From Gammaproteobacteria bacterium (GTDB lineage Bacteria > Pseudomonadota > Gammaproteobacteria > RBG-16-57-12): a DNA stretch of 54,189 bases. This document shows, in pieces, positions 4,988 to 54,140 of this stretch (position 1 is its first letter; the number at the start of each line of letters is the position of its first letter). The notes below the pieces were generated by a model. It searched no databases, was not told where the DNA came from, and was given only the letters and a program-made list of their open reading frames with translations. The position numbers were made by a program, and so were the translations under genes. Location of the stretch: NCBI GenBank assembly GCA_021647245.1, contig JAKIVC010000023.1, forward strand, positions 1 through 54,189, written 5' to 3'.

Positions 4988-5318
4988 CACTCACTCTCAA
5001 CATAGATCTTAAAGCAACCATTTTACCTCATTCCCATAAAAACTGGCGGATCAATCACCCGCCAACCTCTGCGTTGGCCGAAAATAACTCAAGAGGGTCT
5101 TGGAATAAAGCGGTGCACCTTGGGGTGGCTGTGGGTTTTATTAATCTCTCTTCTCGTTTCTGACAAGCTTCTGAGCATCGGCTGACAAGTCACTACTCTC
5201 TACTTCTTCAGGTTCAATTAAGTATTGGGAAATACTATTGGTGTGCTTCGAGGAGGCCACGAATAAGTCATGTTTATAGCCTCCATAGCAGTCTCTTTAG
5301 AGGCACCCTTTAAATTTG
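4988..5318. other. Divergent intergenic region between ylqF and a glycosyltransferase
   Basis: No gene is seen in this roughly 330-base gap. It contains two hairpins. One pairs tggcgg (5044-5049) with ccgcca (5059-5064), and on the minus strand it is followed by five Ts (5042 back to 5038). The other pairs agtatt (5221-5226) with aatact (5231-5236). Promoters for both flanking genes should lie here, but I could not point to convincing boxes. Confidence 0.5.
5038..5064 (-). terminator. Minus-strand hairpin with T-run upstream of ylqF
   Basis: Read on the minus strand, tggcgg and ccgcca pair around a nine-base loop and are followed by gttttta. It resembles an intrinsic terminator, but no minus-strand gene precedes it within the gap. 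It could therefore be an attenuator in the ylqF leader or a leftover. The stem is only six pairs. Confidence 0.35.
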
Positions 5319-23637: not shown

Positions 23638-23711
23638 CCGATTACTGAGAAGCGCTGCAACAGGTTAATCCTGCCAGGCTCGGTAGTTGGCGTTAAACTT
23701 TTAACGGCGCT
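23638..23711 (+). ncRNA. S-adenosylhomocysteine (SAH) riboswitch before ahcY
   Basis: The leader carries the conserved SAH core gagaagcgctgcaac ... ccaggctcgg. P1 pairs 23638-23649 with 23679-23690 (12 pairs, three of them G-U). P2 pairs cagg (23661-23664) with cctg (23670-23673). A hairpin pairs gttaaa with tttaac (23692-23705), and agcgct (23651-23656) can pair with ggcgct (23706-23711) as the pseudoknot. Known SAH riboswitches raise ahcY expression when SAH accumulates. The ahcY ribosome site cggag follows at 23721. Confidence 0.92.
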
Positions 23712-23731
23712 GTGTTTATTCGGAGAAAAAA

Positions 23732-39071: not shown

Positions 39072-39640
39072 TCCCCGATAGGGGATCCGTAAATCCCCCG
39101 CCTTCGGGCGGCTGGGGTGCGGTGGTATGCTTAACTTAAGAGATGCAGAATGATAAGTATGGTAGCCATGCGGTTTGGGATTGTAAGTGCCACATAGTGT
39201 GGGTGACGAAATATCGTTACTCAATACTAGGCGGAGACGTGAGTATTCGGTGTCGAGAGCTACTTCGAGAAATGGCTCGTAGCAAGGAGATGATGATCTA
39301 TGCAGGCTCGATCAACCGAGACTATATGCTAATCGGTATCCCCGAACCTATCAGTATCCAAAGTAGTGCAGTTTCTGAAAGGTAAAAGTTCGCATAAATT
39401 ATTGTCGGAGTATCTTGCTCTCAAAAAAAGATACTGGGATCAGCATCTTTGGGCTAGAGGCTATTGGGTTGCTTCGAGCGGGAATGTGACAGATGAAGTT
39501 TGGCAGGAGTATATAAAAAATCAGAAGCAAAATTAGCTGGACGATGGTTTTAGCGTGCTGTAAGTCGCCTTAAGGCGAAATGATCGGCATTCAGCCGTAA
39601 CTCGAAGCCATCGGCTTTTAGCCAGTGGAGTATTCACATT
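39072..39640 (+). mobile_element. Decayed IS200/IS605-type insertion sequence
   Basis: A broken tnpA is flanked by subterminal hairpins. On the left are tcccc-gata-gggga (39072-39085) and ccgcc-ttcg-ggcgg (39098-39111). On the right are tcgccttaaggcga (39565-39578) and the gaagccatcggcttt stem-loop (39604-39618). IS200-type elements have such end hairpins and no terminal inverted repeats. Exact ends are uncertain. It lies in the gap between the polymerase and the next glycosyltransferase. Confidence 0.7.
39143..39536 (+). pseudogene. tnpA: IS200/IS605 TnpA transposase, frameshifted
   Basis: The first reading frame (39143 to about 39345) gives HAVWDCKCHIVWVTKYRYSIL, the N-terminal half of an IS200 TnpA. 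After a shift near 39345 a different frame gives VVQFLKGKSSHKLLSEYLAL and then WARGYWVASSGNVTDEVWQEY, ending at TAG 39534-39536. The HUH nuclease motif is also damaged: NRDYMLIGIP stands where NRDHVHMLIGIP is expected, a loss of two codons' worth of sequence. It should be inactive. Confidence 0.85.
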
Positions 39641-47604: not shown

Positions 47605-49467
47605 ATGGCGACAGCAATGCAGGAACCGCACAGCATCCTGAGCCACCTTAAACAGTGCGCCAACCTGAAGTTGATTAGTGACCTGGATTATCAATTCGCC
47701 CGTTTTATTGCCGAAAAATCCCCCGATGTCAGCACAAAAGTGCTGCTGGCCGCCGCCTTACTGAGCAACCAAACCGGGCAGGGGCATCTCTGTATTGAGC
47801 TAAAAAAATTTGCTGGACAGCCGCTGTTTGGCAGTGACCGGCATCCCGAAACAGAAACACTATTAGCCCCTAAGCGTTCGGTATGGCGCAGTGCACTCCG
47901 GGGGTGCAAGCAGGTTGCTCTCCCAGGCGATCATGGGTTGATGGTGCTTGATGCCGCAGACCGGCTCTACCTCGCAAAATATTGGCACTTCGAAGCCGCT
48001 ACTGCGGCTGCGTTAAACCAACATGCCTCTCAAGTGGTTGAGGCAAACTTGTCACTTCTTAAGGCAGGCTTGCAACGACTTTTTCCGGATAGCCCAGCGT
48101 CGATTGATTGGCAGAAAATCGCGGCGGCCATTGCGGTGCTTAAACCGTTTTCAGTGATCACAGGAGGGCCTGGTACCGGCAAAACCACCACCGTGGTTAA
48201 ACTGCTGGCACTCCTGGTTGAGCAGCAAGAGGCAACCCCGCCACGTATTGCACTGGCCGCACCCACAGGAAAGGCCGCCGCTCGACTCAGTGAGTCTATC
48301 CGGGAAAAGAAGAGCCAACTACTCTGTTCAGATACCGTGCGTGAGGCGATCACCGACGAGGCGACTACCTTGCACCGCCTGCTGGGTGTCATACCGGGCA
48401 AGGTGAGCTTTCGCCATAACCGTGACAATCCACTGCACCTGGATGTGCTGGTGATCGATGAAGCGTCAATGATCGATCTACCCATGATGTCGCGCTTATT
48501 GGATGCACTTCCCCTGCACTGCCGGTTGATTCTGTTGGGTGATAAAGATCAACTGGCCTCGGTAGAGGCGGGTAGCGTGTTGGGTGATATTTGCGCGGCT
48601 GGGCTGCGTGACGGCTACTCTGTCGCAATATGTGAGCAGTTGCAGGCGCTGACCGGAAACCATCTTGTAGCGCTTAAAGAGCTTGACTCACCCTTGAATG
48701 ACGCCATTGTCTGGTTACGAAAAAGTTATCGCTTTGATGGTGCAGGTGGTATCGGAATGTTAGCGATGGCGGTAAACGCCGGAAAAGCAAAAAAAGCACT
48801 TGCCAGCTTTGATGACCTGTTTAACGATAATATCAAGTTGGAGAGTGTCACAGCCGAGCAGCTGCCACACCGGCTTGCTCAGCAGGGGGTTGCGTATTAC
48901 CGTCACTACCTTCATTGCGATAATCCTGCGGATGCACTTCAGGCTTTTAACCGCTTCCGTATTCTGTGTGCTCTGCGTGAAGGGGTGTTTGGGGTTCAGC
49001 AACTCAATCAACGGCTGGAAAAGGCGCTTAACCAGCAGCGTTTAATCGATAATCGTCAGCGCTTTTATGCCGGTCGACCGGTAATGATTACCCGCAATGA
49101 TGCTGCGCTAAAGCTCTATAATGGAGATATTGGCTTGATTTGGCCAGACAGTGACAATGGAGGCAGGTTGCGTGCCTTCTTCATGATGGCTGATGGTTCA
49201 CTGCGTAAAATTTTACCCAACCGTCTGCCGCAGCATGAAACAACGTATGTGATGACGGTACATAAGAGCCAGGGCTCCGAATTTGAGCAGATCATTTTGC
49301 TACTGCCCGATGAAGCGCTGCCGGTTATCACCCGAGAGCTACTCTATACCGGCATTACCCGTGCTAAAAAAAGGGTGGAGATCTGGTCGCACCCCTCAAT
49401 ATTTGAACGGGCCATTAATCGCCCGACTGCACGAGCCAGTGGATTGACAGAGGCGCTGAGATATTGA
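47605..49467 (+). CDS. recD: Exodeoxyribonuclease V alpha subunit (RecD)
   Basis: The 620-residue helicase has the Walker A loop GGPGTGKTTTVVKLLALL (near residue 188), the VLVIDEASMIDLPMMSRLL Walker B region, LILLGDKDQLASVEAG and the C-terminal VMTVHKSQGSEFEQIILLLP. RecD is the fast 5'-3' motor of the RecBCD recombination nuclease. The length is close to that of E. coli RecD (608). The usual partners recC and recB are not within this window, and the gene is placed after pgsA, which is not its common position. Its stop overlaps the next gene's ATG. Confidence 0.93.
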   Translation: MATAMQEPHSILSHLKQCANLKLISDLDYQFARFIAEKSPDVSTKVLLAAALLSNQTGQGHLCIELKKFAGQPLFGSDRHPETETLLAPKRSVWRSALRGCKQVALPGDHGLMVLDAADRLYLAKYWHFEAATAAALNQHASQVVEANLSLLKAGLQRLFPDSPASIDWQKIAAAIAVLKPFSVITGGPGTGKTTTVVKLLALLVEQQEATPPRIALAAPTGKAAARLSESIREKKSQLLCSDTVREAITDEATTLHRLLGVIPGKVSFRHNRDNPLHLDVLVIDEASMIDLPMMSRLLDALPLHCRLILLGDKDQLASVEAGSVLGDICAAGLRDGYSVAICEQLQALTGNHLVALKELDSPLNDAIVWLRKSYRFDGAGGIGMLAMAVNAGKAKKALASFDDLFNDNIKLESVTAEQLPHRLAQQGVAYYRHYLHCDNPADALQAFNRFRILCALREGVFGVQQLNQRLEKALNQQRLIDNRQRFYAGRPVMITRNDAALKLYNGDIGLIWPDSDNGGRLRAFFMMADGSLRKILPNRLPQHETTYVMTVHKSQGSEFEQIILLLPDEALPVITRELLYTGITRAKKRVEIWSHPSIFERAINRPTARASGLTEALRY

Positions 49468-49775
49468 TGGACAAAGAGTTTTTGATCTTTATGGTGCTGG
49501 TTGGGCTGGCTGTTTGGTTTTGGCTCGACTCCATGCGTGCTCATGAAGCTGCCGTGAAATATTGCAAAAAAGCGTGTGAAAAAGAGGGCTGGAACTATCT
49601 GGATCAAGCGGTGGTATTGAAAAAAATTTGGCCGCGACGCAATCTCCGCGGGCGAATTCAGCTGCGCCGTGAATATGCTTTTGACTACAGCACCGGTGGC
49701 GGTGACCGCCAAGAGGGGCTGGTTGTCATGCTCGGGCCAACGGTACAACAGCTCACCATGTTGAGTCGTGACTAG
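49467..49775 (+). CDS. DUF3301-type small membrane-anchored protein
   Basis: The 102-residue protein has one N-terminal hydrophobic segment (FLIFMVLVGLAVWFWLDSM) and a basic tail with AVKYCKKACEKEGWNYLDQAVVLKKIW and REYAFDYSTGGGDRQEG, matching the uncharacterised DUF3301 family common in Gammaproteobacteria. ATG 49467 overlaps the recD stop (TGATG), so translation is coupled. Its TAG stop is also the first three bases of a 28-base inverted repeat starting at 49772/49773, so the element inserted precisely at the gene end, perhaps replacing the original stop. Confidence 0.85.
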   Translation: MDKEFLIFMVLVGLAVWFWLDSMRAHEAAVKYCKKACEKEGWNYLDQAVVLKKIWPRRNLRGRIQLRREYAFDYSTGGGDRQEGLVVMLGPTVQQLTMLSRD

Positions 49776-50201
49776 TACATCAACCCTCTTATATTGCCTG
49801 GTCAGTTGATCTGTCAGTACCCATGATAAGGCGCGCTTCGCAGGGAATGGTTATTCCCTTTACAAGAAACGCAACGCCGCCATGGGTACTGACAGACCCA
49901 CCTTGCGGGCGTTTCTGTGGCACTCCGCCTCGGCGTTATAGCGCTTGTCAAGGAAATAACCATTACCCGCGAGCTATGCCTTGATGCGAAATGCCACAGA
50001 ATCGCTGACTAGGAGGCTGTCGGACTTAGGGTGAATCTACTGCGGAAAAGCCATTCAGGCCCATTTCTTCGATCATTTTCGTTGAATATGCTCAATATTC
50101 GCCTCAAACGATCAAAAAAATGGACTCAAAATGGCTTTCCCTCGCTACGATCACCTAAGCCCGACAGCCTCCTAGGCAATATAAGAGGGTTGATGTACTA
50201 G
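49772..50201. mobile_element. Composite non-coding element with 28-base perfect inverted ends
   Basis: The ends ctagtacatcaaccctctta (49772 onward, 28 bases to 49799) and its exact reverse complement (50174-50201) bound 430 bases without a gene. Inside are further perfect or near-perfect inverted repeats: 49810-49825 with 49881-49896 (16 bases), 49913-49922 with 49992-50001 (10 bases), and 50011-50030 with 50154-50173 (19 of 20). In addition 49841-49878 and 49931-49968 are related in opposite orientation. This looks like nested MITE-like elements. TA at the ends suggests a TA target. Confidence 0.75.
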
Positions 50202-50328
50202 GGTTGTTCCACGGGAAATATTCCCTGTTTTACCCGGGTTCGTAAAATAGAGGGGATAAAGAGGTACTTTGAGTGTGTGATTCATTGTAATCTATTGAAT
50301 TATTGGATAACTACACAAGATTTTTTAC
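49776..50328. other. Long gene-free interval before surE
   Basis: No gene is seen in these 553 bases. The first 426 are the composite inverted-repeat element. The remaining 127 before the surE GTG hold only small hairpins (gggaaatattccc near 50214 and ttttac-ccgggttc-gtaaaa near 50230) and an AT-rich stretch that could contain the surE promoter; I see no convincing boxes. Confidence 0.5.
50011..50173. mobile_element. Inner palindromic MITE-like element (aggaggctgtcgg family)
   Basis: The ends aggaggctgtcggacttagg (50011-50030) and cctaagcccgacagcctcct (50154-50173) are inverted with one mismatch, and the flanking ct/ag extends the pairing. The interior is also palindromic (gaaaagccatt with aatggctttcc; gaatat-gctca-atattc at the centre). 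A deleted relative lies at 18576-18637. It has no coding capacity. Confidence 0.75.
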
Positions 50329-51087
50329 GTGAAAATATTATTGAGTAATGATGACGGGTACCTTGCCCCGGGGATTAGAGCGCTGGCGCAATCATTGGCT
50401 GAAATCGCACAGGTGTGCGTGGTGGCACCTGACCGCGATCGGAGTGGTGCGAGTAATTCGTTGACACTGGACCGGCCGTTGCGGGTGACAGAGGTGGATA
50501 GTAACTGCTTTTGTGTTGATGGCACCCCCACTGATTGTGTTCATTTAGCGGTTACCGGGTTGCTTGATTATGAGCCGGATATTGTGCTCTCGGGTGTCAA
50601 TGCCGGTGCCAATATGGGGGATGATACACTCTATTCCGGCACCGTTGCGGCGGCGATGGAGGGGCGTTTTCTAGGCTTGCCTGCCATAGCGGTCTCGCTG
50701 GTGGGGAAGTACCCATACCAGCACTTTTCGACTGCTTGTCAAGTGGTGGTGAAACTGTTGAAACAGCTCGAATTGACCGATTTGCCCGCCAATACCATTT
50801 TAAATATTAATGTGCCAGACCTGCCCATGGATCAACTGGCAGGGGTTAAGGTGACACGTTTAGGCCAGCGCCACCGTGCCGAACCGGTGGTTAAGTCGGA
50901 GGATCCTCGTGGCCGTGCTATCTACTGGGTTGGCCCTGCCGGGCCTGAACAGGATGCTGGGCCGGGAACCGATTTTGATGCGTTGAAAAACGGCTATGTG
51001 TCATTAACGCCGCTGCATGTGGATCTTACTCAGCACGGTGTACTGGATGAGCTGCGCTCGCGGGTGGGAAGTTTGGCGTGGTCATGA
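50329..51087 (+). CDS. surE: 5'/3'-nucleotidase SurE
   Basis: The 252-residue enzyme opens [22 protein letters not shown] with the metal-binding aspartate pair (NDD), then [18 protein letters not shown], and [30 protein letters not shown]. SurE dephosphorylates nucleotides, part of the stationary-phase survival set. GTG 50329 fits the family start ([10 protein letters not shown]). It begins the classical surE-pcm-yqaA-nlpD-rpoS cluster and overlaps pcm by four bases. Confidence 0.97.
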
Positions 51088-53067: not shown

Positions 53068-54024
53068 ATGGTGTCAGGTCGGGATAAAAAAAATAACAAT
53101 AACAAAAATCTGGATAAAAAGTCAGAGGTTATTGATAGTACAACTACGGGTGAGGTCACTTTTGAAAAAGGAGAGGTATCGGATGGTGACATGGATGCCA
53201 CACGCCTCTATTTAAATGAAATTGGTTTCTCCCCACTGTTGACGGCTCAGGAGGAGGTTCATTTTTCACGCTGGGCACAGCGAGGTGATCAAAACTGCCG
53301 CAAACGGATGATTGAGAGTAATCTTCGCTTGGTGGTCAAGATCGCACGGCGCTATTTGAACCGGGGCTTGGCTCTGCTTGATTTGATTGAGGAGGGAAAC
53401 CTGGGGCTGATCAAAGCAGTTGAGAAGTTTGACCCAGAGCGGGGGTTTCGCTTTTCAACCTACGCCACATGGTGGATTCGCCAGACCATTGAGCGGGCAA
53501 TTATGAATCAGACCCGTACCATTCGCCTGCCGATTCATGTCGTGAAAGAGATCAATGTTTATCTGCGTGCCGGGCGCCACCTGTCGCAAACACTCGATCA
53601 CGAACCCAGCGCTGAAGAGATTGCCGAGATGCTCGATAAGCCGGTAGAAGAGATTCAGCGTATGATCAGCCTGAATGAGCGGGTAACTTCAGTGGATGTG
53701 CCGATGGGGCGTGATACTGACCGTTCTATTATTGATGGCATTGCAGACGATCACGGCAATGAGCCGGATGTAAGCCTGCAACATGAAGATGTGCGTAACA
53801 GTATCGAGCACTGGTTAGGTTTGTTGAGTGAGAAACAGCGCGAGGTGTTGTCACGCCGCTTTGGCCTTAATGGCTACGATGTGTTTACCCTTGAAGAGGT
53901 GGGTGTTGAGCTGGGTGTTACCCGTGAGCGAGTGCGCCAAATTCAGTTGGAGGCGCTGAAGCGACTGCGCCAGATTATGTCTCGCGAGGGCTTCTCAATG
54001 GATGCGCTGCTGGATAGTAATTAG
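53068..54024 (+). CDS. rpoS: RNA polymerase sigma factor RpoS
   Basis: The 318-residue sigma-38 has the lysine/asparagine-rich N-terminus, [16 protein letters not shown] (region 1.2), the core-binding [41 protein letters not shown] and [16 protein letters not shown] (region 2), and the helix-turn-helix [20 protein letters not shown] of region 4. It directs stationary-phase and stress transcription. ATG 53068 follows 14 bases after nlpD. Its stop TAG (54022-54024) is also the first three bases of a 44-base inverted-repeat element, so the element lies at the end of this gene too. Confidence 0.98.
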
Positions 54025-54065
54025 TACATCAACTGACCCGGTAACATAAGATGGTTGATGTACTA
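54022..54065. mobile_element. Short inverted-repeat element on the rpoS stop codon
   Basis: tagtacatcaac (54022-54033) and gttgatgtacta (54054-54065) are perfect 12-base inverted ends around 20 bases. They match the ends of the large element at 49772-50201. The right arm, with ataaga and ggttgatgtacta, is clearly related to its counterpart. It may fold into a hairpin at the rpoS 3' end and act as a terminator. Confidence 0.7.
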
Positions 54066-54140
54066 GTACTCTTTCAATGTGATATTGCCTAGTGTTAAAA
54101 TTCCTTCTCATGGTTGGTCAATATCTTGTTGAGGGTGCTC

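Follow-up and report, generated by a model that had tools for sequence, protein, structure and literature searches.

Bacterial MITEs are short, non-coding sequences with inverted ends that occur in many copies, are moved in trans with a short target duplication, and are occasionally nested (PMC10969869). REPINs are composed of hairpins of 20-40 nt with a GTAG (or variant) tetranucleotide at the foot, and the associated RAYT gene is flanked by hairpins (PMC3116915, PMC3733652). In Coxiella, the insertion sequence IS1111 has inserted into the GTAG palindrome of one QMITE (PMC5896051; PMC10969869 for IS1111 insertions). Here, we analyze a locus in a 54,189-nucleotide stretch of gammaproteobacterial DNA, the whole of which we refer to as the window, that resembles each of these systems in part. 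The likely explanation, in our view, is a non-autonomous transposable element of ~267 bp including its CTAG ends (element A) into which a younger MITE of 159 bp (element B) has inserted (Table 1).

Element A resembles bacterial MITEs in being dispersed and non-coding, with inverted ends, a target duplication and an empty site. Distinctions from MITEs are the presence of two internal paralogous hairpins, a core and a 3-nt spacing that are kept across genera, and terminal repeats that are not conserved. Moreover, no insertion sequence (IS) sharing its ends was found near the loci we fetched, and A has no terminal sequence in common with an IS1182-family IS of the same genome. Like REPINs, A has a pair of inverted hairpins with a tetranucleotide at either outer end, and it is dispersed in intergenic DNA. 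However, its hairpins are about 105 nt long, it possesses an outer stem, the tetranucleotide is CTAG rather than GTAG (CTA/TAG flanks dominate in 68 elements), and an empty site containing one tetranucleotide exists. Unlike in REP-RAYT systems, no RAYT gene was found in cis, as assessed at the Y1_Tnp loci of this genome and by co-occurrence only in other genomes. Element B is MITE-like, with an 18-bp terminal inverted repeat (TIR), no ORF, a dispersed distribution, a target duplication and two exact empty sites. By description, the arrangement is reminiscent of Coxiella QMITEs, since in both cases a gammaproteobacterial MITE serves as the insertion site for other mobile DNA; here, however, a MITE lies in the CTAG of another MITE, whereas in Coxiella an IS lies in a GTAG palindrome.

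A sequence-only reading of the window had described positions 49772-50201 as a perfect 28-base outer inverted repeat enclosing further inverted pairs and an oppositely oriented internal duplicate, with no reading frame, and had explained these as MITE-like elements inserted into one another. The description is accurate. The outer repeat (49772-49799/50174-50201) is 100% complementary over 28 bp and encloses four inner pairs: 49805-49825/49881-49901 (21 nt, 90%), 49898-49931/49983-50016 (34 nt, 74%), 50006-50030/50154-50178 (25 nt, 92%) and 50030-50055/50130-50155 (26 nt, 73%). The duplicate (49838-49879/49931-49972) matches at 76% ungapped and aligns well once small gaps are allowed. No ORF of at least 80 aa is present within the 430 nt, and folding, which that reading had suggested as a check, yields -207.2 kcal/mol versus -117.0 +/- 4.9 for 100 dinucleotide shuffles (z = -18.5), far beyond chance. 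The explanation holds in part: the DNA is mobile and MITE-like, but we find exactly one nesting event, B in A, and the other inner pairs and the inverted duplicate represent the two paralogous hairpins of A (H1 and H2) rather than additional MITEs. For the outer part, the outcome that had been named as refuting it, a single complex element or structural RNA, holds, as the same hairpin pair with 3-nt spacing and covarying stems recurs in many genera and thus marks the inner repeats as one conserved element.

Table 1. Features of the nested locus and its neighbors, in window coordinates
Feature	Position	Strand	Evidence
Left CTAG of A (target copy)	49772..49775	.	CTAG flanks most A copies; TAG = DUF3301 stop
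Left outer arm of A (TACATCAACCCTCTTATATTGCC...)	49776..49798	+	Perfect complement of right arm
Hairpin H1 of A, conserved core	49799..49903	+	Covariance model R1 match, 100.5 bits, E 1.4e-20
Gap between H1 and H2 model matches, 3 nt	49904..49906	.	Same in nearly all relatives
Hairpin H2 of A, H1 paralogue, inverted	49907..50011	-	R1 match, 107.5 bits, E 2.8e-22; H1 alignment
Left CTAG copy from B insertion into A	50009..50012	.	Single CTAG or CCAG there in uninterrupted A copies
Element B, 159-bp MITE nested in A	50013..50171	+	30 same-length loci; TIR GAGGCTGTCGG(A/G)CTTAGG
Right CTAG copy from B insertion	50172..50175	.	Comparison with other B loci and uninterrupted A
Right outer arm of A	50176..50197	-	Complement of left arm
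Right CTAG of A	50198..50201	.	Outer repeat; CTAG flanks of A copies
DUF3301 gene, C terminus shortened by element	49464..49775	+	PF11743, E 1.8e-27; comparison with G002
surE	50329..51087	+	PF01975 and NF001489
Mini-derivative of A, 46 bp, outer arms only, CTAG/CTAA ends	54021..54066	-	Overlaps rpoS stop codon

Searching the 430 bp by BLAST in the genome that carries it, in which contigs C63 and C64 read as N, resolved two repeat families with different distributions. Positions ~238-404, which correspond to B, recur dozens of times on their own at other CTAG sites, and the outer element also occurs without B; the genome-wide search proposed in the sequence-only reading therefore separates the two components. 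About 50 copies of B are present in this genome and its terminal repeat has 104 matches, with the 159-bp length identical in 30 separate loci, most of them bearing CTAG on both sides. When the two flanks of a copy were joined with one tetranucleotide and searched in congener genomes, two B copies were found to have exact empty sites in the congener G002, each a gap-free alignment to the joined flanks and single tetranucleotide. At the locus studied here, B has CTAG at both ends, whereas uninterrupted copies of A have one CTAG or CCAG at this point. At the level of sequence comparison, this difference demonstrates that B inserted into a CTAG of A and duplicated it. CTAG is scarce in the window (65 found versus about 207 expected from base composition), and a rough hand count places ~6 of the ~50 B copies at A sites, where ~1 would be expected. 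We suggest that A brings rare CTAG sites and B uses them, which would make the locus a clean case of MITE-in-MITE nesting. The arms of A are interrupted at the same internal CTAG in two other places, by B at a contig end (C52:13279, L025) and by a short GAGG remnant (C36:16251, L034).

The same genome carries a CTAG-flanked IS of 1586 bp with ends CAGCCTGTCGGACTTA / GCAAGCCCGACAGGCTG, whose transposase matches NF033551 (NCBIfam IS1182) at 375 bits against a cut-off of 270. The IS and B agree over part of their ends, CTGTCGG(A/G)CTT, and both duplicate CTAG, but they differ in their first bases: B, which has no gene, starts GAGGCTG, and the IS starts CAGCCTG. We infer that an IS1182-family transposase would move B in trans. 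Several contig ends (C3, C22, C57 and others), candidates for the termini of a multi-copy IS bounded like B, proved to be B itself cut by assembly, and C24:52456, a candidate autonomous relative of B, carries no transposase ORF. In seven loci (L007, L015, L016, L018, L020, L023 and L028), one end of B runs on into further shared sequence (TTAATACATATCAG / CTGATATGTATTAA) that has a palindrome of its own (TTATTCCAGAAGTC...), indicating that B is also fused to a third repeat family. An additional B copy, L026, sits at a CTAG corresponding to a stop codon in the G001 orthologue.

Including its CTAG ends, A is built in the order CTAG, outer stem, H1, 3 nt, inverted H2, outer stem, CTAG. About 20 dispersed, non-coding matches with inverted ends are found in this genome, CTAG being present at the ends of most copies, and the left outer arm occurs at 20 further sites with no more than three mismatches. 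One uninterrupted copy without B (G000:C22:21351-21616, 266 bp) corresponds to positions 1-242 of the 430 bp plus its last 28 bases. The long-form copy on C22 has an exact empty site in G002, aligned without gaps and with a single tetranucleotide, such that comparison with relatives, as the earlier reading had advised, yields empty sites for A as well as for B. At another A copy, the orthologous site in G002 holds a mini-derivative consisting of the outer arms only. About ten copies in this genome are of a 150-bp form with CTAG ends that contains H2 only (A-short). Because two-hairpin copies predominate across genera, A-short most likely arose through loss of H1, a deletion that may have run between the short repeats ATCAACCCT. 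In G124, five copies at different places are identical or carry a single difference across 215 bp; A moved recently in G124, and the flanks beyond the element suggest a TA duplication. Since CTAG is a palindrome, duplication of TA and of CTAG look the same; the left and right tetranucleotides differ in some copies. Judged by the copies and sites compared, A and B are separate mobile units that both enter CTAG, with TA or CTAG duplicated.

The reach of A extends well beyond this genome. At E <= 1e-4, a covariance model of the hairpin (R1) has matches in 106 of the 369 gammaproteobacterial genomes searched, representing 83 of 272 genera; the E-values are rough because the model was calibrated briefly. 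The set samples this one class evenly. A scan of 85,000 species with the core pattern, the only genome scan to cover other classes, returned 66 loci, all in gammaproteobacterial lineages, in which the model finds 115 hairpins. The consensus core is CAAGGCgcg...cGcaGG.AaTGG....tcCctt..CaAG....g.AACgC. Named hosts include Sedimenticola, Wenzhouxiangella, Marinicella, Lysobacterales, Thiotrichales, Chromatiaceae, Ectothiorhodospiraceae, Granulosicoccaceae and tubeworm endosymbionts. Of 37 close inverted hairpin pairs at the fetched named loci, 34 are separated by a gap of 3 nt. The layout of A is repeated, over 261-268 bp, in relatives from G001, G002 and the distant G018, and the 268-bp double hairpin of G018 has arms wholly different from the local ones. 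Within a genome the outer inverted repeats are near perfect, whereas between genera it is the internal core, and not the terminal sequence, that is conserved. An exact-pattern scan of genome contigs with the local outer arm gave no match, the arms being lineage-specific.

Across 18 sequences from four genomes, 94% of the cells in the alignment are paired and 26 of 30 pairs show two-sided change. The covariation score is 0.82, against 0.27 for shuffled and at most 0.17 for slid alignments, and no shuffle reached it. A further 66 loci gave two-sided change in 29 of 30 pairs and a score of 0.81 versus 0.20, although this alignment was fitted to the model and leans towards it. These patterns show stems that have been rewritten by compensatory change around a core that was kept, and A emerges from the sequence record as one design conserved across many gammaproteobacterial genera. 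Palindrome correction during replication could, however, keep stems paired without any function. We had considered H1 as a separate MITE with a GATC duplication, a candidate that was dropped once the double hairpin proved conserved.

Searches for a described counterpart of A were negative. Rfam 15 contains no gathering-score match for the element, with chance-level matches only below that score; a plasmid collection and E. coli genomes contain no match to A, and viral contigs none to its core. In open-access papers we found no description of A, ISfinder lying outside the scope of this search. Across these collections and papers, no known transposase or published family accounts for A. Taken together, the data are best explained if A is a non-autonomous mobile element, widespread in the class, whose folded structure is maintained.

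As to how A is recognized, we tentatively favor the possibility that it represents an undescribed gammaproteobacterial class of mobile element recognized by structure. An enzyme acting in trans would read the two-hairpin fold and core rather than a fixed terminal sequence, leaving all stems, the terminal repeats included, free to change as long as they remain paired. This is suggested by the outer arms, which differ almost completely between genera while the core and the fold stay. The hairpins would be recognized as single-stranded DNA or as a cruciform. If this is right, a mobile element present in over a quarter of the sampled gammaproteobacterial genomes has no description in the sources searched, and it is the fold, not the terminal sequence, on which selection has acted in its evolution. 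It would also become testable which enzyme moves A, and whether systems other than IS200/IS605 and integrons recognize the structure of DNA hairpins during transposition.

A somewhat less probable, and in our view unlikely, reading is that A is an ordinary MITE of a DDE-type transposase (of the IS630, IS5 or IS1182 kind), with a TA/CTAG duplication, terminal repeats that diverge between genera, and hairpins that are passive. The duplication, the near-perfect outer repeats within a genome and a size typical of MITEs are all consistent with this. Recognition through terminal repeats, however, predicts the reverse of the conservation observed, in which the core is shared between genera and the termini are not. 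Moreover, beside A we found no parental IS that shares its ends: of the 25 Pfam families that the 120 ORFs within about 900 bp of the hairpins match most often, none is a transposase. IS1182 genes occur in 13% of hairpin-positive and 13% of hairpin-negative genomes; they are no commoner with the hairpins, so the enzyme proposed for B is unlikely to serve A generally, and we rejected IS1182 as its mobilizer.

We regard as more doubtful still the idea of A as a giant REPIN-like element, mobilized by a RAYT/TIRYT-type Y1 (HUH) tyrosine transposase through cleavage at the CTAG beside the hairpins. In its favor, the paired hairpins and terminal tetranucleotides are reminiscent of REPINs (PMC3116915, PMC3733652), 10 Y1_Tnp matches at E <= 1e-8 are present in this genome, and at the same threshold Y1_Tnp is found in 79 of 106 hairpin-positive genomes (75%) versus 129 of 263 others (49%; Fisher p = 9e-6), a test that ignores phylogeny and overall mobile-element load. 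However, the gene is absent at that threshold from 27 hairpin-positive genomes, including G070, which has several copies of identical score; the ends are CTAG and not GTAG; and no hairpin lies within about 1.5 kb of the Y1_Tnp genes of this genome, which led us to reject these as mobilizers of A. Separately, Y1_Tnp (RAYT-like) matches at 39173-39524 of the window fall in two frames with a stop between them, apparently a decayed transposase gene.

Deep covariation, a conserved core and a strong RNA fold could also point to a structured RNA gene or cis-regulator carried on mobile DNA, its fold selected as RNA. This we judge quite improbable, given that A has no fixed neighbor (across the 120 flanking ORFs, 123 Pfam families are matched, each at most twice), no Rfam match, copies in either orientation to genes, and empty sites that reveal insertion. 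Lastly, the nesting of three or more MITEs, as the earlier reading held, would accommodate the real B-in-A insertion, the inverted ends of H1 and the existence of A-short without H1, but is scarcely credible when H1 and H2 with their 3-nt gap constitute the ancestral design across many genera and the double-hairpin form recurs with unrelated arms in G018.

The locus lies between the DUF3301 gene and surE, as had been noted, but does not leave the former intact: the TAG of the left CTAG is its stop codon, and the product is seven residues shorter than the G002 orthologue, which reads past this point. The usual upstream neighbor of surE is smr, which adjoins it in G001, G003 and other genomes of the class; in this genome, smr is located on another contig (G000:C38:11201-12006) beside a gene for a SEC-C protein, and what follows DUF3301 in G002 corresponds to the window from position 5192 onward. 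By these comparisons, the element lies at a rearrangement junction (49772-50243) that splits the common smr-surE neighborhood. Recombination between two A copies would explain the junction, as would insertion at a break, either of which would have joined the DUF3301 and surE loci; against recombination, no A copy is present at the reciprocal junction by smr. From about 50243 on, the surE-proximal DNA is 88% conserved in G002, and rpoS starts 2.9 kb downstream. With this DNA conserved in the congener, a strong effect on the rpoS block is not implied. The TTAG end of the mini-derivative listed in Table 1 forms the rpoS stop codon, much as the DUF3301 gene ends in the CTAG of the element at 49775. 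Elsewhere in the window, positions 23641-23719 match the SAH riboswitch at 52.2 bits versus a gathering score of 37.
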